Source: Asterochloris sp. CNOR1
Taxonomy: Eukaryota; Chlorophyta; Trebouxiophyceae; Trebouxiales; Trebouxiaceae
DNA length: 64,000 bases
Direction: 5' to 3'
Assembly: GCA_963969365.1 (NCBI GenBank)
Contig: OZ017747.1
Location: forward strand, 1,922,001-1,986,000
Made by a program: the position numbers and the translations under genes. The notes beneath the pieces are model-generated. The model was not told the origin of the DNA. It made no database searches and worked only from the letters and a program-made list of their open reading frames with translations. How positions within the stretch are numbered: position 1 is the first letter of the stretch; each line of letters starts with the position of its first letter. Positions 3,001 to 58,900 of the stretch are shown one piece after another.

Positions 3001-5530
3001 AAGTCCCTGACAGCCAGATCACCTTGGCGCGCTGCAGCTCGCGCTCGCGTTGTTGCCTGCGCCACTCTTCGTCTGCAGCCGCCTTCTGTCGCCGCTGCTC
3101 CTCTGCACGCTCCTCCAGGACACGCAGCTTGGCCTTGGCCTTGTCCTGCACAGGCAGGCAGCGCCAGTTTCAGGGGCGTGCAGGGGGGACATCGTCTAGG
3201 ATGTGTAGCTTACGCTTAAGCAATAGTTCCTTGCACATAGACAGCACCCAGTGTGTTTCTGCAACAGGCACCGCTCAGCATGCACAGCTTACACCCAGGC
3301 CTTGTTCTGGCGTCGCCTTCTTGGGCAACAACTGAGTCAGGCATGCGCAAATGTAGCTTACCCAGGCACAGTGCAGCCCTGACTTACTCTTGTTGCAAAA
3401 CAGCAGGTGTGGCTTGCAGCCAGACACCAGTGATGAGCACAAGCAGCAGCCAGCCAGGTGCCAGACATGGTGCAAAACCCCTTTAGGGCAGGCGGCTTGC
3501 CTGCAGCTCCTTGCGCATGACTTCATATGCGACCATCTGCTGCATCTCGCGCTCCTGGCGGCGCTTCATTACCTCCAGCCGCTTGGCCTCCTTCTCAACC
3601 TGACATGGGAGGCAGCAGATTATGTGGCCCAGCCATCGTAGCCACAAGGTTGCTCATGGCCACAAGGTTGGAGAAAGGTTGGCAGCTTCTTCAAGACTCT
3701 GTAAAACTGCTGGGAGCAGCACTCGTTGCAGCACACGATCAGCAAATCAAAGTGCCATCAAATGGCCACAAAGGAGATGCTGACAGATGCTCACACAGCT
3801 GCTGCTGCTGCTGCTACAAGCAAGGTGCTGAGGCACTGCCCAAAGTCCTCACATCAGCTCCATGCAGCACTCACAGCCTCAGACTGGCCTGTCCTGTGAC
3901 GCAGCTGCATACTCTTCTGACCTCACGCGGCCAATCAGAATATGCCTGTCGATCCTGTCATGAGGTGGGTCTCGCAGCAGCACATGCATGCCATCACTAC
4001 AAGCTCCTGACCGCTCCAGAATGGTGCACTTAAAACGAGCTGCAGCGGCATTCACAGACCGAATGAAAATTGGTCTCCCCTGCCGGATGCCTTGCTGGTG
4101 GCTCACCATGTCGGCGTTCTCCAGGTGCGCTGCCTTGCCCCCGGGGTGCGCTCCTGCGGCGTCCTTCTTGCCCCCACCATGCTCCTCCTCCTCAATTACA
4201 TGCTTGCGCTCCTCCACCAGGGCAGCCAGACGCTCCTGCAACAGCCAGGCAGGCCCATCCAGACACGAAACAGAGATGTCTTCCAGCTGAAGTTTGCCGC
4301 CAACGCCAAGACTGGGCTGCTAGTCGCATGTGCTGACTGGCCCCTGCAGCCTCAACACAACTGCCTCCTGAACCACCTCTGCAAGTCAGTGCACGCTCAG
4401 CTGCTGTGCACTGTACTGTCTGGCCTGCAGCTGCCAGCTGCATCAAGGCAAGCCCAGCCAATCATGCAGCGATGCACTGGACAGCTTCAGGCTTGCCACG
4501 GCAGCAAGTCTCACCGTGCGGATGGTCTCACAGTGCTTGTATGCAATATCTGCGAGCTCGTGGTCGCCGTGTTCCACGTGCAGGAACCATTCCATGGGGA
4601 CATGGCGCAGCTCCGAGGGCTCCACCCCCAGGCGCAGGCAGGCCTCCACTGAGCGCGGGCTGGTGGGCTCCAGGCTGCCTGACCGGGGGTCTGCAGGGGG
4701 CAAATGGCACTGGTCTAAAGTTCATGTTGTCAGAGCAAGGACTCAACTCACCTGAGCAAACATTGCAGTGGTCACACAACAGCAAGCTCCCCCATGCAGA
4801 CAGCAGGCACGTGCACAGTGCAGGTACACGGAGAGTGCAAGCACAGGAACACAGCGAGTGCAGGCTAATGGGGTCTGGGCTGCCTGGCTGGGGTCCTGGA
4901 AGGGGCTACACACACGCTGGGGCAGCTGCATGGTGATCACAGGCTCCAATTGGCCAGATGCACAGGCAGCTTGCGCAGAGCAGTGCAGCGGCAAGGGCTG
5001 CGAGCAGTCAGGCTGCTGGTCTGCCTGACAGGGCATGTGTGGGGAGGCGCTGCTGTGCAGCATGGGAAGTCACCGTTGGCTCTCTCAATCACATCTGAGA
5101 TGGTGACTTTGTTTCTGTCTCCCCGAAGGGCCTCAGCCTGCATGGACAGCAGGCGGTGAGGACAGGTGGTTTCCCAGGTGGTTGTAGCACTCAAACAACA
5201 AACATCATACTGTCAGCTGCCGAGGCTGCTTCAAGGAGCTCACCTTGGCCCGCTGCAGATCCTCAAGCCACACATGGGGTGGCCTCTGTGACTCCTCAGG
5301 GTGCAGCTCTGCAGCACGCGTGGCATTGTTAAGGCCAGCTTTGACAAGTGGCTGGTTGTTTGAATTGGCAGATGCCTTCTTTGGAACATGGAAGGGCCTC
5401 ATTGGCAGCCCAGGGTCGTCTGAAAATGCAGAGGCAATGCACATGTGCATGTCATGCTGTCAATCCTGGACCCCTGTGGCTCACCATTGCCCGATGGAGG
5501 GCTTGCTGCCCGTGCAGGGGCAGGAGACAT
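1..5530 (-). CDS. CCDC177-like coiled-coil protein (C-terminus beyond left edge)
   Basis: Multi-exon gene read leftward. I place the start at the ATG ending at 5530; its short first exon encodes MSPAPARAASPPSGN and joins an exon at about 5251-5418. A globular part follows near 4535-4700 with the motif SPRSVEACLRLGVEPSELR, which resembles the N-terminal block of animal CCDC177 (established only by recall). Next come long Arg/Glu/Lys-rich coiled-coil exons at about 4140-4241, 3497-3599, 3024-3148, 2602-2730, 2040-2170, 1475-1650, 860-980 and 243-410 (for example QAREAERIREE-type heptads). They are separated by introns without coding signal. The coiled-coil exons resemble trichohyalin/plectin-homology proteins of cilia, so a cytoskeletal or ciliary role is possible but is inference. 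The stop codon is not in the window. No catalytic motif is visible. Exon borders are approximate. Confidence 0.7.
4650..4905. repeat. Exon-edge copy in intron of the CCDC177-like gene
   Basis: The start of the minus-strand exon at 4651-4700 (reading PRSGSLEPTSPRS after its acceptor) recurs as a decayed copy at about 4856-4905. By eye the two are about 70% identical over 50 bases. The copy lies upstream in the intron and keeps a CAG at the position of the acceptor. Confidence 0.55.
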
Positions 5531-8800: not shown

Positions 8801-9300
8801 CGCCAGCTGGGGGCTCAAGGCTCTAGCCATGTGGCAGCTCTGCATCCTTTGTGTTGCCACAGCCGCTTGCCCACCTATGATGAGGCCCACATGTCGTCCC
8901 TTGCTGCTCTCCTGCTCCAGCAGATCTGAGACGCTGAGCCGAAACTTGGGTGCAGCATCCAGACTCCAGTTGTCCAGAATTGCCTGGCTCAGGGGTGTCT
9001 TCATTGGCACAAACTTTGTGGGTTGCACTGCATCCCCAGTTGCCTCATAGTCTCCCCTGCAGAGGAGTCAGAGCGGCTATGGCATCACTGCATGCTTGTG
9101 TGCTTTGCAGCTGGTGAGTGATGCATGCAATTTATTCGAACACTTACCATTTCTGCAGCTTCTGCAATACACTAGGCCCTTCACTCTCTTTGTCGGACAC
9201 AGCAGAGCGGCTATTGACCCCTCGGGGCCCATTGGCCAGCGGCTCAGCAGAGGCGCCACGCCCTGCCAGCTTGCTCAGCAGGGCGATTGCTGTCACACAC
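5869..9300 (-). CDS. mRNA-capping-type RNA triphosphatase/dual-specificity phosphatase with Ser-rich tail
   Basis: The exons at about 8874-9063, 8433-8611 and 8031-8247 join in phase into one cysteine-phosphatase domain. Its first exon has KFVPMKTPLSQAILDNW, the second DLSNHETLYAEDVPP, and the active-site loop is HCAYGFNRTG, split by an intron after the glycine. ARPPGVKHERFVAELHDRY follows. The HCxxGxxR loop followed by ARPPG is the signature of the RNA 5'-triphosphatase domain of mRNA capping enzymes and PIR1. No guanylyltransferase domain follows. Instead, Ser/Arg-rich low-complexity exons are read at about 7500-7680, 6830-7160 and 6300-6560, ending with a final exon near 5869-6153. Those tail exons could belong to a separate gene. 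The 5' end is uncertain: an exon at about 9150-9300 joins in phase but has no in-frame ATG; the first in-frame ATG is near 9004. Confidence 0.7.
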
Positions 9301-9403: not shown

Positions 9404-12400
9404 ATGCAGCACTTCCCAGAGTCAGTCAGTGATGGGCTACAGCGTGCGGTGGACAAGATAAATGAAAACCGTCAGCCTTTGTTGGTTGCTGCTGGCGTGA
9501 CTGCTGCAGCAGGGGTAGCTCTAGCAGTCAGGAGGCGATCTGCTAACAGGATCCCCTCATCAGGGCCGTACACATCTGTGAGCGCATCAGACCTCTTCTG
9601 GCCATCTTCCCTTTTGCCTCCAGATCTGCCACTGTTGTGTGCATTGATCGGTGCTGATTGGCAACTTGCATCCCCAGCGGCACCAGCAATCACACATCCC
9701 CATCTGGACAATTGTTCGCTCCCTGACTGCAGGATACCCTGCCAGCTGGGGCCTATGACTGCGTCATTGTGGGCGCTGGCCCCTCCGGCAGCACAGCGGC
9801 CTATTATATGTCCCAAGGAGGGGCCAAAGTGGCTCTCCTGGAAAAGGAGCACTTCCCCCGGGACAAGTACTGCGGCGACGCAGTATGCACGCCAGCCATC
9901 AACATCCTGACCGAGATGGGGGTCATGCAGGAGCTCATGGAGAAAAACGAGGCTCACTTTGCAGACGCCGGCGGCTTCGTCAGTCCTGCAGGGCTGTCGT
10001 ACATTGGTGAGCAGCCCTGCCTCACTAAGGCTGCCCAGCAGGCTCTTATGAGGCAGCTGATGGGGCTTGCAGCACAGCCAGTGCTGTCTTCTGCCATGAG
10101 CAGCGGCTTTGGAGGGGAGGTAACATCTTTTCACGTGGTGTCTAGGGGCTGATCACACAGACAGCCTCAAAATCATTGTGCCGCCCTGGTGGCTATTGTG
10201 TCAGGCAGGTAAAGCGCCTGAATGCAGGACTTTCAAGTCTCTGTGCAGGCAGCAGCGAGTTGTGCATGCAGCCTTCAGGCGGCCCTTCAGTGGCAAGCTG
10301 GGCAGGGTACCTGACAGGGCATGCGTCACCCCTCTGCAGGTGTGTCAGTGGAGAAGCTGGGCACAGCTGCGGCCTGCGCAGTCAAGCGCATCAACCTTGA
10401 CAAGCGCATGGCAATGGCTGCTACGCGCCAGGGCGCCGAGCTCAGGGAGGGGTTTGAGGTTACAGAGGCAGAGCTGGACCGGGAGCGAGGCCTCTACCGT
10501 GTTGTTTCGGCAGATGTGAGTCCCCCTCAGTCTCAGGCACAGCGCCTGTCTGCCCAGTCAGCCAGTGAGCCCTCACCTGTCTGCGTCTGTGCCTGTTTTG
10601 TTGTGAACGACAGCAGCCATGGCTGCCTACTAACAGGCTGTGCAGCCCAGCTCCCCACCCTGCTTGCTGCTCTTCCTAGAGGGAAACCCAAGGATGTACA
10701 CAGTAGCCAATTTGCTTGCTGTCTGCAGCCCGTGAAACTAAGTCTGCCTTAGTGTTGGCTGTATATGCAGGAAACGCAACAGAGTCAAAGCCGCTGTGCT
10801 TGTCTGCCAGCTGGGTAGCCAGTTTGCTGCCTGAGTCTGCAGGGCCACAAGGTGGAGGGCCGCATCCTGATAATTGCTGACGGTGCCACCAGCAAGCTGG
10901 CGATGAAGATGGGATATTGCACAGAGCCTCCTCGTGGGATCTGCAGCAGGGCCTTTGTGGAGGGCGGCACCCACAACACTGACTACGACGGTGAGCTGCT
11001 GCCCGCACAGTGGGTCAGTGCTGCAGGCCAGACAGAGGGCTGCACCTTACTGGAAGGCATTTACCACAATGATTGAGGTGCCAAAGGCGGCGCCACCAAC
11101 ATGGCCAACACTTCCGTCTCAGTAAGCGCAGCCAACTTCAGGTTGGACTCAGTCTTTCAAGGCCAGCCCGATGCAGCTTTCCTCACCTGTTTCATGCTTG
11201 CAGGTGTGTGCTTTTATCAGAGAGAGTCTCTCCCGGGGTACTCAGCCATCTTCAGGCATCCCAACGATGAGCTGAACTTCTGCTACTATTTGATACCCTG
11301 CGGGAAGCAGGGATGGTGCGGCGACGTGCAGGCAAGGCATTGCCTCAAGCCTTGCCTCAATTGCGATCGATCCCCCAGCTCAGAAGCCTCCTAGATTCCT
11401 GTGGTCAGGCAGGTATGCAGGGTGCCTGAGCAAGCTCCAAGAGGGTCACTGACCTCCCTGTACAACCTGCTGCCTTCTGGAGACTGTCATATTGTGGGTG
11501 GTAGATCTCGCTCACCACAGCTCTTCAAGTGAAGTAGAGCGCCATTAACAGGCCCTCGATCTGCTCTGAGCAGTGCCGAAAAGCATGCCCTTCAGCGCCT
11601 GCACGAGAAGAGCCTGAAGCAGGTGCACCGGCCCATCCTGACACTGCTGCCAGTGCCTCAAGCCAAATCCAAGCACCCATAAGCCAGCTGCCTGGCTTTG
11701 CAGGAGAAGGACCTCAAGCGGCTGCATGAGGGCGCCATCAAGGATGACCCTTTCATCAGTAAGTCTTTGGGGCCCAACGCAAAGATCGAGCGCATGAAGG
11801 CGGCCAGCCTCAGGCTAGGCGGGCAGGGCCTGCTGACGACCCACGACGATCACCTCATCATTGTGGGCGATGCTGCGGGGCACATTGACCCCCTCACGGG
11901 CGAAGGCATCCACACTGCCATCATGGTCAGCCGTGCTGGTCCACTTGCATGCTGCCCACATCCTGTGCAAGCTCGCAAATTTGAGATGTAACGGCGGCGT
12001 CTGCTTTGACTGGATCCAGCAAGGAGCAGCTTTGATGGGCAGTGGCCCGCATGCTGAATGTCATGCAGCGTGCACTTGTGTGTGTGATAGGCGTGGTGTT
12101 CCAGTAAGGCATGGTTACCTAAGAAACAGCTGCCAGCCGTTCTGCTGCCGGCGGCTGACCCTTGTGTGTGACAGCACTTTGTCTCGAGCTGATGGCTGTC
12201 TGCAGGGCGGCAAGGCTGCTGGACAAGCAGTCCTGAGCATGAGGCAGACGGGTGACTTCAGCAAACTCTCGACCCGTCAGTATGAGAGGCGCTGGATGGA
12301 GTTGTTTGGCCACGACTTTGTCCTGGTGAGCAGTCTGCTGTGCGTCAAGGCTTCTGGCACCTCATAGGATCTCAGCACATGCACTCAGCCTTGCTCAGCC

Positions 12401-13015: not shown

Positions 13016-16000
13016 ATGAATCGTTGTGCAGGGCAAACGAGCTGCAGCTATGTGCATGGCTGCCCAGCATCTGAAAGGAGTAAGTGGGGCCAGCTCAGAT
13101 CACTTGGCCTCCCCTCACAGAGGCTGTCCAGACGTCAGATGAAGCGCCAGGGGAAGCACATAGTCGCAGCCTTGTCTCCGGAACATTTTGGGGACATGCT
13201 GCCTGCTGTGCTCGACCATCTGAGTTTGGCTTATGAGCGCGTCACGCTGCCATGCTCAGCAATGAACTGTGGGGATGCCATTTATAGGAGGTGCGTGGTC
13301 TGCATGCGCCAGGAGCTACCATCATTGATGCGTGCTGCTCATGCTTGATGATCAAGGTGTTGCCGCATGCACGTGCTGCTTGGACAGGCCCCAGGCTGCT
13401 TACTTTATCCCTGCAGCACGCTAGACCCAGTGCTGCGCTTGGAGCAGAAGGGCATCAACCCAACAGGCCTGGCCCTTGTCTTTGCTGTCCTCCTGTACCT
13501 GACGGCCACACCAGGTGAGCAGACCTCCCTGATGTTCTGCTGATGTGGAAGCATTCAGCAGGTGTGGTGCATTCACCAGTCTGCATCTTGCATCCCCTCA
13601 CGCCATGCTGTCTGCAGGCGTGCTGGCTGGGGCGGTGGACTATTACATCCTCTCAAGGTGGCAGAGGCTGCAGGACAAGAATGTGTTCACCAAGGTGAGG
13701 CAGAATGAGGCAGGCTTCCCTATTGGCTTGTGACAGATGCTTGCACGGCATGCTGGCACAGGGAGGATCATGGCGGGCACGCTGCTGATCACAGGCATGC
13801 TGCAAAACCCAGCTTCCATTTCCTCTTGCAGGATGACTTGAAGCTGGGCAAGAAGCTTGCCACTGGGGGCTTTGGCACGGTGTACAGAGCAGTGTTGGAC
13901 GATGGCTCGCCAGAGGGGCGGCAAGTCATTGTCAAGAAGGTAGGGCAGCAAACAGGCAGGTCCCTCAACCAGAAAGCCCAGGCTGCACCATGCCAGTCTG
14001 CACTTCCAAGTTTACAGACCATGAAGCCTGGCACTCCCCGCCTTGAGTGGCAGGGCAGCTGCCAGCAGGGGTATGTCGAACTTTCTGGACACAGTGAGGC
14101 CATGCAGATTGTCAAGCAGGAGCCCAGAGGCCCCAAGCTCATGCCAAGCATGGCTGCTGCCTGCCCTTACTTTGGGGCAGCTCCCCATCCGCCCCTATGC
14201 TACCCATCTGCAGGCCCACTTGAGCAGAGTGCTGGGTTTCATCAAGAGTCCCGCTCCCACATGCAGGCCAAGGAGTTCGGTGAAGCTGAGGTGTGGATGA
14301 ATGAGCGCCTGATGCGCGTGGCCCCTCGCAGCGTGGCCGAGTTCATAACGGCCTTTGAGGAGCAGCGCCCAGAGACCAAGCGGCGCAAGAGCGCAGCCCC
14401 AGAGCCCCTGTGGCTGGTGAGTTGCAGCGGTGGCCACCAGATCCGCCACATTGCCGTCTTGTGAGCATGCTTCAGACAAGTCCCCCTTGTGCTGCTCAAG
14501 TCAGACCTCTTTGCTAGTAACATGACGTCTCAACACTTGTGTAAGACTGAGCTTGTGATCCACAGGGCGGGCAGGCAGCTCCAGGCACCCACCCACCGCC
14601 ATGCAGGTGTGGCAGTATGAGGGCGACTATACGCTGTGGGATTTGATGCAGAAGAAGGACTTCCCATATAACATGGAGCCCCTGCTGCTGGGAGGGGAGC
14701 TGGACTTGCCCAAGGGGCCAAGACGGAAGGCACTCACCATCCAGCTGGTGCTGCAGCAGGTAGGACCTGCAGGGCTGGGCATGTGGGATCCAAATGGATT
14801 GTAAAATGCAGTCTGCAGCTCTGCCGCGTGGCTGTCACCACCCAGCTGTTGCTGCAGCAGCTAGGCTGTCTGATGCCACAGCAGACAAGTTTAGCATGGC
14901 TTCACATGCGTATGTGCCTCAAGTGGCAGCTACTACCAACCAGCTGGTGGTGCAGCAGGTGGGTCAAAGTAGGTCCTCTGCTGCACAGCGCACCACAGCG
15001 TACCACACTTCTCAGCTGCCCTGGCAACCAAAAGCACTGGGTGTCAGGCTCCTGGCCAGGGCAGCTGTGTGAATAGGGCATGTCTGGTCAGGCCTGTGCT
15101 TCAGAGGCGCCCTCTGCCTCAGCGCTGGGCAGGTGACACATTGCCAGGGTAGCTGCATTTGCCAAGCTTGGCTAGTGCAGGGGCACTGGGGCAGTGTCCT
15201 GCTGGCTGTTTCTGTTTGCGTGTCTTGCTTGCCAGTGTTGACCACCTGTGCTGTGCCCTTTGCGCTCCCCCGCAGATTTCTAGATCCCCTCAGCAAAACT
15301 CTCCACCCGTACCTCCCTGTCCCTGCACGTAATGCACATGCTGGAGGCATGCAACGCAGGGGCCAGGGTGCCCTGCTAATGCCAGCCGCCTGCACCATGC
15401 CAGCTGCTCCCCAGCTCATCTCAAGCCCTTTTCTCTCCTGCCTCTGCAGGTGCTAGAAGCATTGAAGGCCTGCCACGCAACAGGCATCGTGCACCGCGAC
15501 ATCAAGCCCCAAAATGTGATCATCAGCGCAAAGGCCGGGCGCGCCAAGCTGATTGACCTGGGGGCAGCTGCTGACCTGCGGGTGGGCATCAACTACATCC
15601 CCAACGAGTTCCTGCTGGATCCACGCTATGCCCCACCCCAGCAGTACATCATGAGCACCTCGGTAAGCTGCCACTGGTTGACTTGGTGTCTGCCCATGGC
15701 CGCTCTGAGATACCTTGCCGAGCCCCAGCAACCACGATGCGATTTCACCAGCATGACATGAGCACCTGGGTGAGTCCCAGCAGATTGACTCAAAGTTTTG
15801 GGGCATGTCCTGACAGGCTGGAAAATTGCTGTTGAGCCATGCCTAGGCCCATAGACTGGCCACAGGGCTGCCTCTCAGCATCTGCGTCACAGCACCATGT
15901 CATGAATCTTTTGGTGAGCATGCAGATTGGCCGGGGCTGCACGGCTGGCCGGCTGACTTTGGGCAGCAGCCGTTGGCATGACCATAGCAGGGCCAGAGCA

Positions 16001-18247
16001 GGGAGCTACTGTACAGAGCCTGGGCTTGTCCAGCCTTAGTCCAACCCCTGCCAAGGCTCCCCCGTCTCATGGCTGTTGCAACCAGTCGCAGTCTGTAGGT
16101 TGCTGGCTGCCGTGCTGTTGCTGCACGCCCCACACAGTCCGCCTGCCCTGCTGTGCAGACTCCAAGCGCGCCGCCGCTGCCCCTGGCAGCCACTCTGTCA
16201 CCCATCCTGTGGCGTCTGAACAGCCCCGACCGCTTCGACATGTACAGCGTGGGCATGCTCTTTCTGCAGATGGCCTTTCCACCTCTGCGCAGGTGGGGCC
16301 TCCTGGCAGAGCTGCAACTGATGCCAGCATGTGCTGTGCCCTCTGTTGCATCGTTCTCTCGCATGGTTGGCCATGATGGCGAGCAGGCCGAGTTCGCCTT
16401 TGCGCCCTTCATGCAGTGGGGCAGCACTGCTTGGTACCTTGCCAGCAGCTGTGCTACCTGCCTGCAGCGACAACAGCCTGGCCTCTGTACCTTGCTACCA
16501 GCTGTGCTGCCTGCCTGCAGCGACAACAATCTGGTCGCCTTCAACCGCAAGCTGCAAGGCTACAACTACGACCTGAGCCGCTGGCGGCAGGCCCAGCAGC
16601 GGCGGGGCAGCAAGGATCTGCAGGAGGGCTTTCAGGTAAGCTGTGCTGTGTTGGCTAGCCGGCTGATCCCCATGCCTTGTGCCAAGGTGGACGCTGCGCG
16701 AGGGGCACGCCGCACATGCTGTGCCTGCTGCATTTGTGTCTCCAGACTCCTTGGGGTTGGACTTGCAGGCAAGCTGCGGCATGCTGCGGCATGCTGAGGT
16801 GTGTTAGGCAACAGCAGGGTGACAGCCAGAGCGCTCCCATGGTTGCCCACCCCCTTCAGGAGGGTGCAGGCACAGAATGCAGCAGGCGCAGCTCACTGCT
16901 TCTGCAGCTCTTGCCATAACGTCCGGCAGGAGGGTGCCATGGCATGCACGCCCCTTCAGCCGCTGCCTGCATGCACCAGTGAGGTCTCAGGCTGTGCTGC
17001 TCTTCATGCACAGGTGCTGGCGCAAAATGGCGGCACAGGCTGGGACCTGCTGACAAAGCTGGTGGTGTTTGAGCCTGGCAAGAGGTTGAGCGCGAGGGCA
17101 GCACTGCGCCACCCCTGGTTCGGGGCTGGCCTGCTGGGCTCTGTGGCTCAGGCACTGGACCGCGTGGGGAGCAGCATGGGCGACGTAAGTAATGCACAGT
17201 GCAGCCGTGCTGCATTTTCAGGCTGCCAACAGTCTTTTCGGTACTTCATATGCAATGCTCAGGGTCAGCATTGCCATCATTGAGCGGTCTGCTGCCATCA
17301 ACATCAGGTTGCTGCACAGGCATCCTCTTGCCAGACCTGAAGGCAGGGGCCCTGGCAGCAAATGCCAGGGCCCCTACACACTGAACAGCTCCTGTTGTGA
17401 ACAAGCCAAGGTCTAACCCGATTCGCGATGCTCTGGACCCCTGTGCATTGCCCCTGTTCAGGTGGGTGGGGAATGGCTGAGCGACGCGATGTCCAAGTCA
17501 GGGACAGAGCGCGTCGGGGGCCTGACAGAGGCCCAAATCTCTGAGGAGCTGGAGGGCGACTTTGCAGGAGAGATGCCAGCCAATCTGCGCAATGCAAGCA
17601 ACACAATTGCCTGGTGGCGCTCGCGGCAGGCGCTGCTGGACTTCAAGGTGCGCAGCTGTCTCTTAGAAGGGCTTGCAAGGTGACGTCTCAGGGCGGTTTG
17701 TGTTTCCTTGCTGCTGTCAGGCCTCGAGGTACAGGTCTGAAGGGGTTATTCAGCTGTGTTGTTGTATCTGAGGTAGTGCAGTGCTGGGTGCTGCTGGGCC
17801 AGAGTTGGCAGAGGCGCTGCTGCCTGGAATGGCGCTTCCTTTGCAGCACTTACCCCTCTCACAGTACCATGTGCCACCGCCAGGCGTTGATGGATGTTGC
17901 GTCTGAGCGTGTCTCCCTCTGCAAAGATCAAGTGCCTGTTGGCCGCAGTCTAGGCATTGTGCCCGTCCCCTTCAGCACCCCTGCTCATATGGCCATTTTG
18001 CGCTGCCAGACAGGGCTCACAGCCTTTTGTGGGGCAGCAAGTGTTGTCGGTGTCGTTCCTGGTGGCCTGCTTCAGCCACACATTGGAGCCCAGTTGGCAT
18101 GGCCAGTGCTGACAGTGCATCATTGCACTGCAGATGAAGCAAAAGCAAGCGAAGCTGAAGAAGGGGTTCAACAAGGGCATCAATAAGATGCAGATGTCTG
18201 CGCGCAACACAATTCGCGAGAGCCGCAATCCATTCATGCAGGTGTGA
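13016..18247 (+). CDS. STT7: State-transition thylakoid kinase STT7/STN7
   Basis: Twelve exons splice in phase to 597 residues: 13016-13290, 13417-13514, 13618-13694, 13832-13939, 14267-14416, 14607-14759, 15450-15662, 16159-16292, 16521-16635, 17014-17184, 17462-17647, 18134-18247. STT7/STN7 phosphorylates LHCII when plastoquinone is reduced. A basic, Ser-rich N-terminus looks like a plastid transit peptide. The lumenal redox pair is present in [15 protein letters not shown] (Cys-x4-Cys), followed by a membrane segment ([18 protein letters not shown]). Kinase motifs: VIVKK lysine, HRDIKPQN catalytic loop, [17 protein letters not shown] in place of DFG, and [19 protein letters not shown]. The tail [15 protein letters not shown] matches STN7 rather than STN8. 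The glycine loop reads ATGGFG, so its first Gly is Ala. The end is at TGA 18245-18247; an alternative is splicing at that point to 18331-18360. Confidence 0.92.
14731..14960 (+). repeat. Three copies of the exon 6 donor edge of STT7
   Basis: The end of exon 6 with its donor (14735-14766) is repeated at about 14834-14866 and 14929-14962. Each copy reads close to CCAGCTGGTGCTGCAGCAG followed by GTAGG, CTAGG or GTGGG. The second copy has lost the GT; the third keeps a plausible donor. Confidence 0.75.
16434..16539 (+). repeat. 53-bp tandem duplication of the exon 9 acceptor of STT7
   Basis: Two adjacent copies with a 53-base offset, nearly identical by eye, each contain CTGCCTGCAGCGACAACA. The acceptor AG falls at 16467 in the first copy and 16520 in the second. 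Only the second keeps the reading frame ([19 protein letters not shown]), because 53 is not a multiple of three. Confidence 0.85.
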
Positions 18248-31472: not shown

Positions 31473-31534
31473 AGTGACCTTTTGCAGCGTCTGGCATCAG
31501 GACTGTGGGCCTCTGAAATGCCATACTCAGAATG

Positions 31535-39700: not shown

Positions 39701-40256
39701 CCTCTGCATTCCAGGTGCTCTGCCCATGCCGCACCAGAACGATGCGCTTGGGGCTGGTGATAATTGGCAGTTGCAGGGGCGGGGCATCCTCTCGATCACC
39801 TGCACAGGTACATGACAATGGTTGGCTGCAAATTGCTCGAGGTGCAGTGCTTGAAGGTCACAGTCCGTGCTCATCGTGCAGAGTTGAAATCACAAGCGTG
39901 TGTGCCTGCATCAGGCCCAGCTCAACACCTGCCAGCTGCCTACTGGTGGCACAGTGTGAGCAGGAACTCAGCTGACCTAGCTCTGAAAATTCGTCGCTGC
40001 CCTTCCATGTGAAGTCCTCCTCTGCAACCTGTGATCTGGCTGATGCCGGCGCCTCTGTTGCACTTGCACGGCATACAGTGGGCCCACTGGGCTGCTGCTG
40101 GGCCTGCTGTATGGCCTGCTGCTGCAGACGCAGTGACCCTGTGTGACTGGCTTGTCTTGTCAGAGGTACGAATGCTCTCGAAAAGGGCTGGCCAGTGCCA
40201 TTGAGGCCAGCATTCGGGAGAGGAGATGTTTTCATGTCGACCTCAGCGCCATGCAT
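36717..40256 (-). CDS. Double histidine-phosphatase, 2-carboxyarabinitol-1-phosphatase-like
   Basis: Two phosphoglycerate-mutase-type domains in one protein. The start at 40256 (or the Met seven codons later) gives an N-terminus rich in Ser, Gln and Ala, with no acids early, consistent with a plastid transit peptide. Domain 1: IVLVRHGQSTWNAEGRVQGS (about 39700-39760), FDMLIHSPLQRAKETAEIVW and LREIDLYSFQ (39270-39400), then DRYGEQYRMWQ, and CALVVAHNAVNQAMIATATG (38380-38450). Domain 2: MIRHGATYSTEDGLLLGRKD (37880-37938), DTLFSSPLKRSADTARTISK (37490-37550), LTERDFGEWEGEPTARV and VAVVGHSGVIAAMLC (37000-37040). It ends LDGCF at 36717. The layout and the first-domain sequence match the plant CA1P-phosphatase homologue, which removes the Rubisco inhibitor 2-carboxyarabinitol-1-phosphate; that activity is inferred, not shown. 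Confidence 0.88.
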
Positions 40257-40689
40257 GCATGCGAACAGTGTGACGTCAGCGGTGGACCAGGCTGCCCTGC
40301 ATGGACTTGTAGGTGCAGTCTGCAGATGGCCCTGATCTGATCACTACTTCTGCTTCTGGCAGGTTGAAGATGCACCCCATGTGTTTCATTTTGGCTCCCC
40401 TACAGTGCCATCTTCAGGCTGGACAGCTTGCTTCTTACTCAAGAAAGAATATCATGGCATCAAATTGCAGGAGCTCCCAAACACAACACAACATCACAGG
40501 CATGCATACTGCATATGGGCTGAAAATCTAGCTTTTCAGCAACAGATGGGGCAGCTGGACGCGACCAACCAGGTACTTTGCATCGTTCAGATAGGAGGGG
40601 AAGCTGGGAGGGAATGGCCTCATAAATGCTGTCATGTTGCAGGATGGTGCCAAGCATCGTGTGGCCTCTCCTGACCTGTGAAAGGTGAT
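40257..40689. other. Gap upstream of the double phosphatase gene
   Basis: 433 bases with no frame I would call coding. It should contain the promoter and 5' UTR of the phosphatase gene and the 3' UTR of acyl-CoA oxidase. Confidence 0.4.
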
Positions 40690-45002: not shown

Positions 45003-48000
45003 ATGGATCCCCTAACAGCTTCTCTGTTCAGCCAGAATGTTGAGGAGCACCTTCCTGAAAATGAACCCGACTGCGCTTCCACAAGCAATCTGACGCAGCT
45101 TGAAGCCCCAACAGAAGTATCTGAGACTGCATCATGCTCAAAGCTCCTGACAGCCAAGATCACCACTGCAAAAGCAGGCAGTGCGGGAAACCAAAGCCAG
45201 CAGAGTGATGCCCTGCATCCGCTGAGCCCCCAGGCCAGCACATCCTGTTCCAGCTTGCACAGCAGCACTGGCACAGAGCATGCATCCCCGCTTGATGGAA
45301 GCGAGCCTCAACCTGATGCGCAGAAGCCAAGTTCATCAGCGGATGACCTGCACAAGGGGCGCTGGCGCACCGCACAGGATGCAGAGCGTGCTGTGCACTC
45401 GCTGAATGGCAGGCAAGCACCCAGGCCATCTCGACAGCTCATATGTGCACACCGCTCCGCAGAGGCAGGGCACTCTTGATGAGACAAAGCAGCCCAAGGG
45501 GTCATTGCTTGTTTTAGCTAGCTGCCTTGTCTGCTGCATCTTTGGTCAGCAGGCCTTGCGTCCCAGCTATCCTGTCGATTGCCAGATGTCACTGCCCGCA
45601 CTGCCAGCCTGCACGATGTAGCCTGCAACATGGCTGTGAGCACTGCATTCTGACACGGCAGCTGGCCTGTGCCAGTGTCATGGGTCAATGCTGCGCTGAT
45701 TCCCCGAATGCTCCCCCATCACACCACGTCAGCAGCGCTGGCGCCATCCACATCGCCGCCCTGCACAGCAGGCATTTTGGGTGTCCTGCAATCCTGGCTA
45801 CTGAGCCTAGCTCCCTGGCTGCTGAACTGCGGCACGTTGCCAATCCCTCCAGCGGGCGATTGCCCACTCCTGCGTCGCTGCCCGTCAACCCCTTTTCCCC
45901 CCGGCCTGCCTGCAGCGCCAGTGCCAGCAACATCACTCGCAGCGCGGGGGGGGGCCCTGCTGGGCTGACCCGCCAGCTGGTGCAGCATGCCATCCGCCTG
46001 GGCAGCTCTGTGCTGCACAGTGACGCGAGCACCAGCTTCCGAGCCATCGCGCGCAACCCCTCCCTGGCACGTCAGGCGCGTGCAGAGCTGGACCACCAAC
46101 ATCGAGGCAGCGATGTCGCAGGTCAGCCCAGCCTGCCCATCTGAGTTGTGCCCCTTGCCTCAGAGATGGGCTTGCTCGTGCACGTGCCTCTGCGTGCACC
46201 TGGCTCTCTGCGTGACATGACCCCTTCATGGTGCTGCTGCCAACCCAGCCAAAGAACCTGCCTGGCCACCACAGCCAGTCGCCAGGCCCTGAGAGGCGAG
46301 CAGCCTGTTGGGCAGAAGGGGCGCCCGAGCCCCTCTGATGGCTCCCTGCTGCAGCATGCAGCCCTGTTCAGAAGCCTCTCTGCAGGGTCCCAGATGCCCA
46401 CAGTGCAGAGCTAGAGCAGCAGTGGGCCTCCCTGGCAGCTCGCTGCTGCAGCCTGCAGCTCTGTCGGGCCCTGATGCAGTGCACCCTCTTGCAGGCTCCC
46501 TGATGTATGCCCACGATGCGGAGCTGGAGCGCCAGTGGGCCTCCCTGGATGGCATCACTGCAGACGCGCTGGAGGAAAGCCGCATCAATTGGGAGCTGGC
46601 GGGGGTCATCTGCGCGCGCATGGGCGCCAGCCGCCGCTCCACAGAGAGGCTCCTAGGAGTACTGCAGGTAGGCCGCACCTGCATGCCTCCTGGCTTGGGC
46701 TTGCCACAAGGCGCACTTGCAGCATGCACTCCTCAGCCTGGAACCTGCCAGAAGCTTTTAGGCTGCTGTGGGGACAGCTGAGCCCCCAATGCACGCCAGG
46801 CGCTGCTCCGCAGAGATGCTCCTGAGGGTGCTGCAGGTGTGCCTGCCACCACGGCTGCGTATTTGTGATGGTGTCGCTGCCGGCGGTGAATGGAAGGCAG
46901 CAGCAGGCGCCATCCGCCTGCTTGCCTGCCTACTCATGCTGGTCATGCTTTGCACCTGCATGTCTGCCAAATCTGCAGGCACTGGGGCAGCATGCTCAGG
47001 GTGCTACAAGTGCCCACTGCTCTGGGGCTGCTGACATCCAAGACAAAGTTTCGCTTGCTACCGGCATTGGCAGTGGCTGAGACGGCCCACGACAGGGCTG
47101 GGACAGCACTTTGCTTGCTGCGGGCAATGTGAGCGGCTGCAAGGGCCTATGCCAGGGCTGGGACAGTAGCCTGCTGGCTGCAGGCACTGGGAGCGGCTGA
47201 GACGGCCTATGCCAAGGCCATGACTGCCATCAGCCATGTCCCCTTGGCGGCTGAGCGCGATGGGGACACCCTGCGTGCTGCCCTCAACGCATTCTCGGAC
47301 CTGCCTCAGGCAGTCGCTCAGACCCACAGCGCGCTGCAGATCGGGATGAGCACCGTCACGCGCAGCCTGCACGAGGTCGTCACCGAGCTCAGGTGGGGCT
47401 GGGAATGCTCATCGCACAAGAGTTTTGCAGCTAGCAAGCCGCCAAGTTGCTGCCATCAGTCACAGCATCGACCTCTGCTGCATGCCAGTAGCAGAGCTTC
47501 TGCATGCTGCCTCTGGCAGGAGTTGTTAAGGCAACGACCAATCAGAAGTGGGCACCTGTCAAGCCGGCCTAGCGTGTGGAGCCAGCCATAGGCTGTGCTG
47601 AGTCACAGGCCCCTGCCTGCTGATGCGTGTGGGGTTGCCGGCGCCCCATGGTCAGGGGACTTTGCCAAAAGGGCTTCCCACGCAGAGCCGGCCGTAGCCA
47701 GATGACCCTGCAACACGTCTGGCTGTGGTCCCTCAAGTACTGTCCCCCTGGCTGTGCAGGCAGGGCTGCCTGGAGCTGCAGCACAACTGCACCAAGAGAC
47801 ATGGCCACAGTGCTCATGCTGATTTGCGCCGGTTGTTGCTGCAGCAAAGTTGGTGATTGTACCTGAGACTTTGTCTCCTGGCTGTGCAGGCGGGGCTGCC
47901 TGGAGCTGCAACAGACTAGCACACAACGGCATCATGCTGTCGAGGAGGCGCGGCGTAGCCTCCAGCAGACCTTCATCGTTCATCAAGACTGCTGCAGGTG

Positions 48001-49679
48001 GGCAGGCAGCCTGCATGAGTGCTGGCTGCTCCCACAGGCAGCCCAGAGTCAGCCTGCATCCCTCAATGTGTGCCTGCCAAATCATTCCTGTCAGGTTGGA
48101 GCAGACTCCAACATCAGGAGCCTTTGACCTCGTCGCAGCCATATGCTTACAATTCCTGTGCAGGCATTTGGATTGCTGCAGAGCCGTTACGTGCGCCTTT
48201 GCCCTGCTGCTGGCAAGTGGCAGGTCATGCTTGATGCATCTGGCTCCCATGTGCTCGCAGCACGGAACCTCAGTCTGCTTGCCGCATGCGCTGTCTTCAT
48301 CATCTGCCTTTGGCTGCAGGGCTTTTGACCTGGCCATGATGGAGCGGCGGCGGCATCGCAGCGGCAGCAGTGTGCGTCCTGTGGAGCACGACCCCTGGCT
48401 GTCTGAGTCCCACATGGTGCAGGGCTACGCCAGCCTGCAGCAGACTCAGACACTGGAGCGGGATTTCCTTGCAGCGGCCTTTGAGCTGCTGAGAGGCCTG
48501 GAGGAGCGGAGGATGGACCTCGTCAAGAGGGCCATTGAGGCCTACCTTCAATGCTACAGGTTGGTAGCTCTGTGCCGGCTTAGAGAGCGAGGGCAGTGAA
48601 CAGGGTCCTCAAGGCTCACCTGCCATGCTGGGGTTCAGCAGCCCCCATGCCATCCCTAGAGATGGGAGCCTCCTGCATGGAGACAACTCCAGGGTGAAAA
48701 GATGCACGTCACAGGTGGGGCCAGGTGCAGCGCGCCTGCCTTGCACCGCCTGTGTGCGGTATGCCCTCCAACAAACATTCACGAGGCAGTCACCAGGCAT
48801 GTGTGTAGACGCATGTGCACTATGCTGCATATGAATTAGGCCAAAAGTTTACAGCAATCCTGCGGTGTGCAGGCTGCAAGTGTCCCTCTGACGCGCTGCA
48901 AACTATTCATCTGAGGCACTCAGGGCACCTCAGGAGATCACCATCTCATCTGTTGCTAGCACACAGCAGAGTGCTCTTGCCGCGCTACCTGCAGGACCAG
49001 CCTGGGGCCCATGAAGCATAACACAGAGGAGCTGCACAGCCTGCTGCAGCGTGTGAGTAGCTCTGAGGACCTGTTGGAGCTGTCTCAGTCTGCAGCTGCT
49101 GCCAAGCAGACAGGGGCAACCCTTGCAGCCCGGCAGGCAAAAATGTTGGAGTCTGTGTCGCAGGAGCTGCTGTGCAGCCCAGAGATCATCAGGTGCAATT
49201 TGCTTGCAGCCTGGTGCATCTGCTGCCCACAGACAGGAGCGCTGGTAGTTCAAAGGCATCTGCACTGTCCTGGAACCATGGAACGCAGGCTGCCACTCTT
49301 ATAACTATTTCACTCCACCTGTTCTCTTGGGACGTACAGGCAGGGAGAGATGGCGCAGTGGATCCCTCAGAAGCAGCAGTGGAACAGTTTGCATTTCATC
49401 CTCACACGCGCAGGCTTCCTGCACTGGTGCCAGTCCTTCGAGGAGCCGACACCGGTGGACTGTCTCAACCTGGTAAGATGCCAGTTCCTGGCTGGTGAGG
49501 CGCCCATCTTGAATCTGATCGAGTCCAGCAACCATGCACTGAACCTCTTTGGCCACAAGACACGCATCATATCGCTGAAAGCCAATGGCATAGAGGATTG
49601 CTGTGAGTGGGCAATTGGTTTACGTGAGGCAATAGCAAAAGCCACTGGCAGAACACCAGAATCACACCAAAATGCATGA
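45003..49679 (+). CDS. BAR-PH domain protein
   Basis: The ATG at 45003 opens a Ser/Thr/Pro-rich disordered exon. Later exons join in phase. About 45750-46115: LTRQLVQHAIRLGSSVLHSD. About 46492-46668: GSLMYAHDAELERQWASLDG. From about 47184: AETAYAKAMTAISHVPLAAE to SLHEVVTELR. About 47891-47998: LELQQTSTQRHHAVEEARRS. About 48321-48559: FDLAMMERRRHRSG to MDLVKRAIEAYLQCY. Near 49000-49191: MKHNTEELHSLLQRVSSSED. Last exon near 49341-49679: a PH domain from MAQWIPQKQQWNSLHFILTR to IEDCCEWAIGLREAIAKAT. The helical middle with the ETAYAKAM signature looks like a BAR-superfamily dimer, and the PH domain binds phosphoinositides in known relatives; membrane curvature or trafficking is the likely role. 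The junction after the first exon may use a GC donor (GGCAG/GCAAGC at about 45410) and is uncertain. Confidence 0.75.
46389..46845 (+). repeat. Exon-edge copies flanking a BAR exon
   Basis: The start of the exon at 46492 (including its acceptor and TGCCCAC...GGGCCTCCCTGG) has a decayed copy at about 46378-46433. The end of the same exon with its donor (46625-46675) has a copy at about 46793-46843 (CAGAGATGCTCCTGAGGGTG, CTGCAG, GT) and a weaker one near 46988-47015. Confidence 0.75.
47051..47230 (+). repeat. Three 60-bp tandem units ending in a BAR exon
   Basis: Units start at 47051, 47111 and 47171 with an exact 60-base period. The third is the real acceptor and exon start (GGCTGCAG/GCACTGGGAGCGGC). 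In units one and two the acceptor CAG is replaced by CCG and CGG, and unit two carries an in-frame TGA, so they cannot serve as exons. Confidence 0.88.
47747..47920 (+). repeat. Duplicated acceptor, 130-bp offset, in the BAR-PH gene
   Basis: CCTGGCTGTGCAGG plus GGGCTGCCTGGAGCTGCA occurs at 47747-47781 and again at 47877-47911 with only one or two differences. The second copy is the phase-compatible exon start (RGCLELQQ); the first keeps a usable-looking acceptor. Confidence 0.85.
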
Positions 49680-49779
49680 GCCCCTTTCCCCCCCTTTGTC
49701 CTCCCCCCGTTTGCTAAATTTGAGCTTAAGCAGAATTTCATTGATTGATCACTCAAATCAGAAGCCACTTCAAGAGGGG

Positions 49780-51464: not shown

Positions 51465-53963
51465 TCAGCCGGAGGCTGTGCTTACCCTCAGCTTTTCGCC
51501 AGCTGCTGCATCATCCAGCTGCACCACCGGCGCATCAGCCCCACGACCTCCAGCAAAGTCTGCAGCGTTGCTCCTGCAGGCGGGGCACAATCTTGTGGGC
51601 AGCTTCCCCAGGAAACCTTGCAACAGCCTTCTGCCCCGTCAGATTGCCTGAGCAGCAAGCCACAGGTCTGCAGGCCCAAAATACATATCTGCCGGCGGGC
51701 ACCTGGCAGGCTGCAACCAGCAAAAAGCACAGGACTCTCTCAGTCCTCCCTGAGCTGCAGCAAGCCAGAGGGCTGCAGACCCCCAATTCACAGCCGCAGG
51801 CAGGCTTCTAGCCAGCAGTAGCGGATGACCCCCTACCTTGCTGGCAGGGCAGGTCTGAGTGCACATGCCGGGCGCAGGCCCCTGCAGCAGAACAGCACCC
51901 ACCGGTCTGTTATGCCCAGCACAGGCTCAAAGGCGCAGAGCGCCTGCCAGAAGCCTTGATTGGGGTTGACCAGGCTGCGCCGGCCATGGCAGTGGGTGCG
52001 TGCCTTGGTCGCATTCCAGCCAAAGCGCCGCATCAGGTAAGCCATGCACAGCGTGGCTGAGCGACTCACCCCGGCCCCGCAGTGCACCAGCACGCCTGCA
52101 GCGCAGCAGCGTGCTGTGTGCTGGAGCATTGCCAGCAGGGCAGCCGCATGTGTGGACGGGGTGTTGAGCAGGGCAGCAGCAGGTGTAGGTGGGTTACGGG
52201 CGCTCCTCAGCAGGGCTGTAGCTGAGACAGGCGCTCGTCTGATCTTGTCCTGTTGAGCCAACCAGACAGTGTTGCTGCAGCATGCAGGCGTCTGCTGTCT
52301 GTTTGCCCCTCAGCAGCCTGCATGCTTCAAAGCAGCGCACACACAGCCATCCCTCAGCCCCACACAGGAGAGACTTACCCTCCCCCTTGGACCGTGCCTG
52401 CTCAATGAAGTCAAAGCTGGAGCTGAAGTGCTTGCTGATGTTTTCAGTGTCCAGGTCAGCCAGCTGGATCTGGAGGTGCCTAAAGCCCTTGGCAGGCTTC
52501 AGATTCTCAGGGTTGTTGTGGATGGTGATGATGTTGTTCACCCTGATCTCCTGCGTGTGCACAGAGCACAGGTATGGTGCAGCCCTGATGATGGCAGGCT
52601 GTAGCAGATGCATTTCCAGTGCCGCAATGTCTCAGATCTCCCAAGCCATGTTGGCTGCAGCACGTGGCGTTTACAGTGCAGCAACCTGCAAGCAGGCAGA
52701 AGCTTGTGGGCTGCAACAGGTGTGCGCATGGTGCAGCCGTGCTCTGCAGTCTGCTCCAGGCCACAAAGCCCTGTTTGCAGCAAAAGGCTTCCGGGCGCAG
52801 GGCAACCGGCGCCAGAGACAACACCATGGCATGCAGCAAGTGCTCGCCTGCAGACGCTCTGTATCAGTTGCATGGTCCCAATTGCCAAGGTAGAGCAGCC
52901 CTGGCAGCATCTCACCAGGGAACCTGCAGGGCAGAGGCACAACTCAGGCGCCGCATCTCGGTAGGCAGTTGTCTTGAGTGGGTTCCTTCGAGCTGCCTTG
53001 TCATAGCCTCACCACATCTTGCCCATGCAAGGGTGTGCATACCAGCAGGCGTTGCCAGGCAGTTGAAATGCGCTTTCGGTGCAGCTGCCGCAATTCTTCA
53101 TGGTACCAGCCTGCACAGAGCTTGCGCACATGAGCAAGCAGGCCTGGCAGCTGCGCTGCAGAGTCTCCTGGGCTTTCTTACTGCTTCATGGCGTTTGCCC
53201 GCACAGAGGTTGTGCACACAAATGGCAGCTGCTTCTCAAACTCCTCGAACCTGCAGCCAAGATTCACTTAAGTCACCTGCTGCAGAGGTGCCTGAATGGT
53301 CACCTGCTGCATGATGACCAGATGTTGGATGCTGCATACCCCTTGCTGTAAGCCATCAAAGTTCCGACCTTGCCTTCTTTGGTTAGGAAAGCTAGCACTG
53401 CAACCACCACCCTTAGGTCAGTGCCTGGGTGCAGGTAAGCGGCAGATGGCAGCAGGGCCGCAGCCTCCTAATCAGCTTGTTACCAGAGTGATCCTTTCTC
53501 AGGCCAGCATCGCCGTACACAATAACCGACTTGCCCCACCTGCAGCAGGCTGTCCGTGCCTTAACAAGGCAAGACCTGGCAAACAGGCAGACGGCATATC
53601 TGGTCAGCATGGTTGGCTGCTCACCAGCAGTCCTTGGCCCAGGGCTTGTTGTATTCATTCTGTGAGTAGTCCTGCACATACGAGGCCGAGGTGAGCACAG
53701 GTCTGGCACCAACACTCCCAGCCAAAGGAGTTTTCTTCCTGGTGGAAGAGAGTTGACCAAAGCAGTAGGTTGTAGTCACAGCAGCTCACCAGCAGAGTAT
53801 CCCCATTGGCTGTCGCCCTGATACAGAAGGCACTCATGATGTGACCACGCTTGAACTTGTTCTGAGACCGCACGTCCAGCAGCCATACCATGGGGTCATC
53901 TGGACACCTGGTGAAGACTGCTCTGAACAGTTCATCATGAGCAATGAACTTGACATGCACCAT
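51465..53963 (-). CDS. Rhodanese-DSP phosphatase (MAP-kinase-phosphatase-like)
   Basis: The likely start is the ATG at 53963 (MVHVKFIAHDELF); the frame upstream has no ATG. The first exon is a Cdc25/rhodanese fold: DDPMVWLLDVRSQNKFKRGH. It is followed by YVQDYSQNEYNKPWAKDCWW near 53650, WGKSVIVYGDAG near 53540, and FEEFEKQLPFVCTTSVRANA near 53170-53240. The phosphatase domain starts with GEMLPGLLYLGNWDHATDTE near 52880-52930. It continues RVNNIITIHNNPENLKPAKG near 52490-52540 and has the catalytic loop VHCGAGVSRSATLCMAYLMR (HCxxGxxR) near 52030-52090. The C-terminal exon near 51487-51590 has CPACRSN and DDAAAGEKLR. The order rhodanese, FxxxYPFxC-like linker, LYLGxxxxA DSP is that of animal MAP kinase phosphatases. 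The rhodanese lacks an obvious catalytic Cys, as in MKPs. The end at 51465 is tentative. Confidence 0.82.
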
Positions 53964-55948: not shown

Positions 55949-58900
55949 TCATGCCTTAGGTGTCTTGTGGGAGTAGATGATGCTTTCCAGCTTTGTCATT
56001 TTGGCAGCTGCAGCACAATCAATACAAGACATGAGAATGACCCCTGGCTGAAGGCTGGAGAAAATGGAGGCACTTGTGGGGACTTACCTATTGCGAGGTT
56101 ACGCTCCTTGGCCTGCAGGACAGCGGCAGCAGTGGGCACTCTATGTGCAACAGTCAGGAAGTCACAGCTTGAGCAAGGGTCAGACGGCAAAGCATTTGAT
56201 GTTGCCAAAGCTCATCATCTGCCTACAGCCACACCTGACACAGGCAGGTAGGCAAGCTGCTTGTTACTGATCCCCAGGGGCGGCAACAGCTCACATGGGC
56301 GCCCTCATGCAGAGGTGCCTGTGGTGCACCGGCTGACCTTGTGTCCAGTGTGCACAGCCTTCAGATAGTTTTCGTGCAGCTCTGCCAGCTCCATCTTGCA
56401 TGCCACCAGCTCCTGCAGGCATGGACCGCAGGCAGATGGGGTGGCAGCAGCCTCAGCAGCTGTGGGGGGCACGAACTGCACGTTTCAGAGCTACAAGCTC
56501 AGGAAAGGTAGGTGCAGCTGACTCTTAATGGACAGCTCTGAGCAGCACTCATGATGAAATACAATCACTTCACAGGCAAAGCTGCGGCTGCTTGGTCCTC
56601 ACCGTCATGATGCTCTCATTCTCGTGCCTCAAGCTGGCCACTTCAGCCTCGATGTCAGGCAGGGAGCCAATAGCAGCGCTCCTCAGGTCATGCATGAAGC
56701 GCTCTGGTGGCGTGGCCTGGCCAGGTGAGCCCTGGGGACTGTTTTTGCGACTAAGGCTGAGCTCACGCTCTGCATCTGCCAGCTCGCCGCTGGTTTCCTG
56801 CAGGTGCTGCTCCATGACATGCTTCTCGAGCAGCATTTGTGACCTGCCAGGACAAAGGTCCTCAGTCAGTGCCTGGCCAGCTCGCATCATACACCTCTTC
56901 ACCAGGCATGGACCCTAAGGCCTGTTAGTGGAAGCACACCTCCCACTCAGACCTTGTATGCCAGGCAACTGCGACACGCAATGCCTGGCCGACAGTGTAA
57001 CCACTTTGCAAAGCAGGACACAGAGAGGCCAGCAGAAGCTGCAGCACCTCTGCTCACTGCTTGGCTCTATCATCCCACGCAGCCCTCAAGCTGCTGCTGC
57101 CCAGTTCCAGCAGGGGACAGGCACAGCAATGAGACTGCAGCTCGTTCAAGCACCAGCTTGGTGCATACCGCTTGGCCTCGCTATCCCGCACTGCCTGGCT
57201 GAGCTTGAGCTGCTGCTCCTGTGCCTCCAGCAGTTGAGCATGCAGCTCCTCCACCTCCTGCTTGGCGTGATCCTCCATGTCCAGCATCTGCTGCTGCAAC
57301 GCCAGTACCTCCTCAGCGTTGTGGGAGCCATGCATGGCCACCTGCTCCCGCAGGTTCTGTACAGCAGGAGCGCACAGTCAGAGATAGGTTGCTGCGATGC
57401 TGCTGCAGAGTCAGCACTTGTTGGCATTGTGCATTCTACAAGCTGCCTGTTCCTCAAGTCTCTGCAGAGCAATTGTTATCCTCTGAGCAGAATGTCAATG
57501 CATCTGCTGCTGCTTCTGGAACATCCGCTACTCCTTTCCATTTGAGTCACGACCCCAGGCAGCAAAGAGCTGCTAAAGTCCTTAAGCATTGCCCTGTAAG
57601 AGAGCACGGCTGACTCACACTCAGGTACACAGTCGCATTACATGACATTTGGCTGGGCCAGCTGCAAGGTAAGTATCTGAACTGCTGCAGGCCTCACCTC
57701 AATCTCCGCGTTCAACTCCTCATTGACTGCCATGGCCTGCCCAAGCTGCGCCTGCAGCTGTGTGATGTCGGCCGCCTGCTGCTCGCTCTGTGTGCGCAGA
57801 GCCTCAAAAGTGTTCAGAGCAAGCTCCAGCTGCTGCTGCGGGGCTGTCTTGCTCTGCACAAGTGGCACAGGACAGGCTTCAATGTCACAGCATTTACAGC
57901 TGGCAAGCTTTTTTGTGTGACCTCTCATAAGGGCTTCCAAGCCTGGGGGTATGAGCTGCCAGATGCAGTGAGCACAAGTCATGTGGACCTCTGCGATCCT
58001 CTCACAAGAACAGGATGAGTTGCATGCACCCATTCCGCACCCACCCGCACCTCAACTGCCTGCTGGTGGGCCCCAAAAGTAGCCTGAGCCTTGGCCAGGG
58101 CGATGCGCAGGCCGCTGTTTTCTGCCTGAGCCTCCTTCAGCAGCTGCGACAGGGATGAGCGCTGGTCTGCCAGCTGCTGCTGCAACGCCTCAGTCTCCTG
58201 CCGGGCAGCTGCCAGCTCCTGCTCCTGGACCTGACGCACAGAGAGTGTGTCGTTTAAGTCATACTTGGATTCAGGGGCATGCACACCATGCAGCCTGCAC
58301 GACAGCGCAGTCTGCAGTACAGAGGCATGCCTCTCGCGCTCAATCAATCTTTGTGGCAGGCACACCTCTGCAGCCCCTGCACGCTGCTCCGCCTGCTGCA
58401 GCTGGACGTGCAGGCTATTATTGGCGCCTGCCAAGTCCTCCAGCTCCTTGTGTGCACTGGCCAGCTCCCTGCATGCCGGCAGGCCCCTGTCAATGCCAAC
58501 CGGGGCATGACTGCCCCAGTCGGGCTTTGAGGAGTGGCCCAAGCCATCTGAAGAGATCAGTGATGCATCACCCCGCTTACTACAGATGCACAAGCACGCT
58601 CATGCTGGCATCATCACTATCCCATCCCAACCTGTTCTTTTCTTCTAGCTCAGCGGCGCGCGTGCCAGCAGCGGCGCGCCTCTCCTCCAGCTCGCTTTGC
58701 ATGTCATCGGTGAGCTGCCTGTAAGAGGTGAGCTGCCTGTAAGAAGCAGGATGCGGCAGCCTGATAAGTATCTGCTGCAGGCTGATCGGTGATGCAAACA
58801 ACTGTAGGAGACGCCTGCAGGACTGTGGTGCATGTGTATGCACATATGAGGATCAGGACAGCTTGCATGAGGCAAGTGACCCTGTGTGAAAATTGCTTCC

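Follow-up and report, generated by a model that had tools for sequence, protein, structure and literature searches.

The stretch of DNA analyzed here, called the window throughout, is 64,000 nucleotides long (contig OZ017747.1, positions 1,922,001 to 1,986,000) and comes from Asterochloris sp. CNOR1, a lichen photobiont of the class Trebouxiophyceae. It lies on contig 2 of an assembly of 56.38 Mb in 21 contigs, which is more contiguous than the Astpho2 assembly of Asterochloris sp. Cgr/DA1pho, for which the available text of the genome paper gives 56 Mb in 151 scaffolds and a mean of 9 introns per gene (PMC6652019). Among the genes in the window are a CCDC177-like gene, an STT7-like kinase, eIF3d, an acyl-CoA oxidase, a BAR-PH gene, a long coiled-coil gene and an oxidoreductase. 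An earlier note on this DNA had claimed that introns of these seven genes hold decayed copies of the neighboring exon edges and splice sites, and had read them as intron growth by local tandem duplication, a process that might also create introns. We found that the local copies in introns are real.

Our sample comprised the window and five 40-kb stretches of the same genome, 264 kb in total. Exon boundaries were taken from a self-trained hidden Markov gene finder, which settled on 684 exons, on average 134 bp long, and 640 introns, on average 239 bp long; its splice consensus is AG/GTGAG for donors and TGCAG/G for acceptors. The predicted 3' splice sites are strikingly uniform: in the window and stretches L002-L021 they read TGCAG, and the three positions ahead of the AG are T in 91%, G in 97% and C in 98% of cases in the self-trained model. 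Predicted proteins match Pfam above the curated cut-offs for FAD binding, protein kinase, eIF3d (eIF-3_zeta, matched by the N-terminal part), acyl-CoA dehydrogenase (Acyl-CoA_dh_M, in the acyl-CoA oxidase gene), Mnd1, reverse transcriptase, Mpv17, dual-specificity phosphatase and TPP enzyme; the FCH match of the BAR-PH protein is under the cut-off. The oxidoreductase finds its best protein match in a JGI Astpho2 model (96% across the entire query), and the aligned part is identical except for one extra predicted exon and two residues beside it. The name CCDC177-like comes from the earlier note and is only a label.

To find copies, we masked simple repeats and scored ungapped self-matches for each offset within several ranges. 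The pairs in the window that are discussed below are:

4651-4701, minus strand: acceptor (4690/4691) and first exon bases of the CCDC177-like gene; the neighboring intron holds a decayed copy, 4856-4906 (score 18.5, spacing 205; acceptor TGCAG, TCCAG in the copy)
11574-11730, plus strand: oxidoreductase, where intronic 11574-11622 weakly resembles the start of the exon at 11704 (below threshold)
14729-14963, plus strand: STT7-like kinase exon end and donor (after 14759), with extra copies at about 14830-14865 and 14935-14963, inside the 690-bp intron 14760-15449 (triple 14734/14835/14935; scores 23.5, 21.5 and 16.5; spacings 101, 199 and 98)
15640-15776, plus strand: STT7-like kinase exon end with donor 15662, and a copy about 107 bp downstream (limits approximate; score 10 in the junction test described below, the lowest accepted)
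16434-16534, plus strand: STT7-like kinase acceptor 16520 and exon start, with a 48-bp copy 53 bp upstream (16434/16487; score 35.5, identity 0.90)
30493-30583, plus strand: eIF3d exon end with donor 30517, copied 70 bp into the intron (30493/30563; score 13.5, or 12 with motifs unscored)
34433-34614, no strand assigned: intronic 91-bp tandem duplicate, also palindromic (Tandem Repeats Finder (TRF) score 262; inverted arms)
44126-44311, minus strand: acyl-CoA oxidase donor edge (donor 44305), copied 159 bp into the intron (44126/44285; score 19.5)
46394-46548, plus strand: BAR-PH exon start (46495), with a copy in the intron 113 bp upstream (46394/46507; score 27.0; acceptor hexamer not kept at the aligned site of the copy)
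46625-46838, plus strand: BAR-PH exon end and donor 46667, copied 169 bp downstream (46625/46794; score 25)
47050-47218, plus strand: BAR-PH 60-bp tandem copies at the acceptor of the exon that begins at 47184 (47050/47110; score 46.5; TRF period 60, 2.6 copies)
47747-47913, plus strand: BAR-PH acceptor 47889 and exon start, with a 37-bp, 95% identical copy 130 bp upstream (47747/47877; score 32.0)
51652-51805, no strand assigned: intron-intron pair 51652-51700/51757-51805, an example without a junction (score 21.5)
58709-58744, minus strand: exact 18-bp tandem repeat, placed in an exon by the gene finder
60619-60803, minus strand: coiled-coil gene exon end with donor 60767 and, 148 bp into the intron, its copy (60619/60767; score 19.5, or 18 with motifs unscored)

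Five of the seven named genes thus hold pairs at or above the listing threshold (score of at least 14). The eIF3d pair is a weaker case, and the oxidoreductase pair is indistinguishable from chance at the DNA level. Because the oxidoreductase piece 11574-11622 is missing from all five aligned orthologous proteins (from Asterochloris, two Trebouxia and two Coccomyxa), it is very probably intronic. The exact copy that the note reported at 58710 does exist, as the repeat 58709-58744; it is either intronic, the acceptor TTACAG having been duplicated, or part of an exon that repeats 18 bp in frame. A predicted eIF3d exon also contains a 45-bp C-rich tract (29591-29635), the coding status of which is doubtful.

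Across the 264 kb, local copies are far above chance. Direct pairs with a score of at least 16 at offsets of 10-309 bp number 133, against 1 in shuffled DNA (a block dinucleotide shuffle, one per region) and 0 at each of the far offsets 1000-1099, 5000-5099 and 9000-9099. By offset, there are 65 pairs at 10-109, 55 at 110-209, 13 at 210-309, 7 at 310-409 and 2 at 410-509, and the shuffles gave 0, 1 and 0 in the first three of these bins. The counts cover offsets from 10 bp up to 400-600 bp, with overlapping pairs merged into the best one. The excess is present in 6 of 6 regions sampled and fades past about 300 bp. With a score of at least 15.5 and offsets of 10-600, there are 159 pairs, with a median identity of 0.84 and a median matched length of 36 bp. 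Inverted pairs up to 600 bp apart (score of at least 16) are near background, at 5 compared with 1 in shuffled DNA and 3 at far offsets, and we dismissed inverted copies, a possible sign of template switching, as a general feature. The strongest inverted pair of the 264 kb is an 81-bp inverted repeat with a 31-bp loop in another of the stretches (L014:1256-1448).

We classified the 151 pairs with a score of at least 15.5 and an offset of at most 400 by location, and compared them with random placement. Intron-intron pairs number 47 (52.1 expected), exon-intron 46 (36.0), intron-junction 25 (17.5), exon-exon 17 (18.9), junction-junction 9 (2.2), intergenic 4 (9.3), exon-junction 2 (9.4) and intron-intergenic 1 (1.9); no predicted junction is involved in 88 of the 151. 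Junction copies lie on the intron side in 25 cases and on the exon side in 2, or 14 and 0 if only robust exons are considered (those of at least 90 bp with a coding score of at least 12 outside the copies; 403 of the 684 predicted exons fail). This asymmetry, as judged from gene models and orthologs, points to use of the exon-proximal splice site.

In a further junction test, matches were anchored at the junction and the splice motif itself added nothing to the score. Of 398 acceptors, 23 have the adjoining exon edge copied in intron sequence close by, and so have 23 of 395 donors, where far controls predict 2.4 and 0.3. The six controls covered about 3.7 times as many positions and gave 9 hits among 345,016 for acceptors and 1 among 347,535 for donors. 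The window contributes 3 of its 110 acceptors and 5 of its 113 donors; some of the pairs listed above escape the test, which depends on reliable exons and intron labels. In total, the exon edge is copied at 46 of 793 junctions, and 19 of these copies have an AG or GT at the aligned position (AG in 11 of 23 acceptor copies, GT in 8 of 23 donor copies). The note's statement that splice sites were copied along agrees with these counts, and many copies have lost the splice dinucleotide.

If the copies arose by tandem duplication, the rest of the repeat unit should match as well. This is so for 58 of 117 spaced pairs at p<=0.05, where 11.4 are expected, and by class for 24 of 34 intron-intron, 16 of 43 exon-intron and 8 of 19 intron-junction pairs. 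The local duplication, decay and intron growth that the note proposed are supported by the near-offset excess and the direct orientation and, in about half of the spaced pairs, by this homology. The most probable explanation, which we hold with good confidence, is frequent random local duplication whose products are spliced out and decay, and which is conspicuous at exon edges. The genome would undergo frequent, random, short-range direct duplication, largely tandem and of about 20-200 bp, and selection would remove the copies that disrupt exons. Copies inside introns or spanning junctions would survive, since splicing would keep the exon-proximal site while the surplus stayed intronic and the intron grew; the surplus copy would then decay by substitutions and small indels. 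A copy partnered with an exon edge would stay recognizable longer than an intron-intron copy, one partner being conserved, and this may be why the copies are noticed at exon edges and splice sites. Short tandem duplications arise by slippage or by repair of staggered breaks. The Asterochloris copies resemble such duplications in their direct orientation, their size of tens to hundreds of bp and the lack of a sequence family, and differ in being mostly decayed relics, from which the mutational step, be it replication slippage or the filling-in of staggered breaks, can only be inferred. That a few of the tandem pairs are exact makes it plausible that the process is still continuing.

We simulated random tandem duplication and decay with conserved exons, retention of the exon-proximal site and a linearly declining rate, taking means of 4 or 8 replicates. 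The declining rate reproduces identities close to the real ones, and the simulations yield 63 exon-anchored and 108 noncoding pairs per replicate, compared with 62 and 111 in the real data. Using the observed spacings and robust exons improved the fit, which was poorer with units of 30-220 bp (30-160 in one run) and all predicted exons. Simulated untargeted duplication thus reproduces the observed ratio of exon-anchored to noncoding pairs, which is agreement and not proof.

Several observations weigh against this explanation in its simplest form. No rest-of-unit homology is detectable in 59 of the 117 spaced pairs, some of which have highly similar copies; at 47747/47877 the spacer is not homologous (p 0.54 and 0.27) despite copies that are 95% identical. 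Gapped extension, a less sensitive test than rest-of-unit matching, rarely passes the matched segment (15% of ends exceed the 95% control level). Simple tandem duplication therefore does not explain every pair, and later indels or non-tandem copying must be allowed. The simulated match hinges on the chosen age profile, with neutral ratios ranging from 0.58 to 1.35. Copies reaching at most 60 bp into robust exons make up 81% of the real data and 57% of the simulated (Kolmogorov-Smirnov (KS) p 0.0011). Adding selection against exon-rich copies, older ages and stronger exon constraint fitted both measures (ratio 0.50, KS p 0.88) with a lower total, and a run with such selection and the same ages (xsel40 p1) was rejected since, although it fitted the depth, it left too few exon-anchored pairs (11 to 108). 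The gene finder made false exons, according to orthologs, at 11574-11622, 46837-46941 and 48182-48223, and the over-representation of junction-junction pairs, 9 where 2.2 are expected, perhaps arises through gene-finder errors.

Duplication could instead be targeted to splice junctions, with co-transcriptional breaks, for example, making them hot spots that copy exon edges into the intron. A predicted junction lies within 63 of the 151 pairs (42.9 expected), copies cluster within about 40 bp of exon edges, and their reach into exons is shallower than simulated, all as targeting would predict. The junction enrichment was lost with robust exons and neutralized motifs, however. Robust donors have a copy in 9 of 260 cases (10.1 expected) and robust acceptors in 21 of 269 (10.3 expected), and with the motif columns unscored these fall to 6 and 5. 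The latter test is strict, since pairs with homology that stops at the motif are dropped as well, but the conserved TGCAG clearly lifts acceptor pairs above the threshold. Untargeted simulation, moreover, yields the observed ratio of exon-anchored to noncoding pairs. The suggestion that junctions are a special target did not survive these comparisons, and we regard it as improbable. Still less probable is that the copies are functional alternative exons or exon ends under selection. Stops are few when the copies are read in the exon frame (6 in 734 codons), which leaves room for some use, and the retention of an aligned AG or GT in 19 of 46 copies points the same way. Against this, the offsets of the 159 pairs ignore the reading frame, being even modulo 3 (51, 52 and 56), mismatches by codon position are 0.166, 0.166 and 0.217, only a slight third-position bias, and in two genes the copies are missing from the aligned orthologous proteins, which do not cover all isoforms.

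The birth of new introns from tandem duplicates, as in the Rogers model, we consider very improbable. In 4 of 634 introns the donor and acceptor edges match each other with a score of at least 14, where 0.00 are expected, and each of the four has a difficulty. Orthologs indicate that intron 46668-46836 is part of a larger intron, the false exon 46837-46941 being missing from 4 of 4 aligned proteins; here the gene finder mistook a copied exon end and donor for a new intron, and we rejected this case. The second, 14760-14955, ends at a false 3-bp exon, and a match between the hand-trimmed kinase protein and MsStt7d spans the join of the larger intron 14760-15449. Candidate C9 (33739-33842) is weak, ending at an exon with a coding score of 1.0, and C1 (14391-14713), with edges 3 bp out of register beside a weak exon, stays a candidate. 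Two of the four are thus refuted, and on these gene models we see no good evidence for the creation of introns that the earlier note had thought possible. Dispersed mobile introns (Introners), reported in 5% of surveyed species according to the available text of one study (PMC9860276), or other transposable elements are the least probable source of all: three arrays (14729-14963, 47050-47218 and 47747-47913) match only themselves in a genome-wide search that skips very common words, and the excess of copies fades with distance as described above.

Other features of the window were seen in passing. The duplicate at 34425-34620 folds into a very long, near-perfect hairpin (minus strand, -134.6 kcal/mol, z -9.73); a genome search with it matched only its own locus, and it may be a precursor of small RNAs or an inverted element that has decayed. 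At 21445-22656 on the minus strand, a reverse-transcriptase domain (RVT_1, E 1.5e-11), which the gene finder fused with neighboring sequence, is probably a transposon fragment. The gene finder also fused three adjacent genes at 31535-44805: the acyl-CoA oxidase, a protein with what we take to be repeated phosphoglycerate-mutase-like motifs, and a TPP enzyme.

Tandem duplication across a splice junction is already known, from the available text of two papers (PMC4974935; PMC3443670). The potato RdRp gene (PMC4974935, available text) resembles the present case in that a local duplication crosses an exon-intron boundary and copies the splice signals, but there it made a new intron, whereas the Asterochloris copies sit in existing introns, with no new intron shown. 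The Rogers model of intron gain likewise involves local tandem duplication of exon sequence, part of which is spliced out, but its signature, a donor edge equal to the acceptor edge, is essentially absent from Asterochloris introns. What we see looks like ordinary tandem duplication with subsequent decay, and not like a novel route to introns. Our literature search found no report of such duplicates in Asterochloris, and the word "tandem" occurs 0 times in the available text of its genome paper (PMC6652019); their abundance in Asterochloris may be notable.

For gene finders and surveys of intron gain the result is a caution, because decayed copies of exon edges can be taken for new introns or exons, as at 46837-46941. 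A further possibility, which we put forward as speculative and rather unlikely, is that an unusually high rate of local duplication of 20-200 bp is a main driver of intron length, with splicing as a one-way ratchet and with copies holding more than about 60 bp of exon purged through being recognized as exons; if true, the depth limit would make exon definition readable from the genome sequence by itself. In intron-rich Asterochloris, decayed local duplicates make up part of the intron sequence, and splicing would let introns grow across their junctions while leaving the protein unchanged. If the rate is unusual among algae, the Asterochloris genome would be a good one in which to measure intron lengthening.

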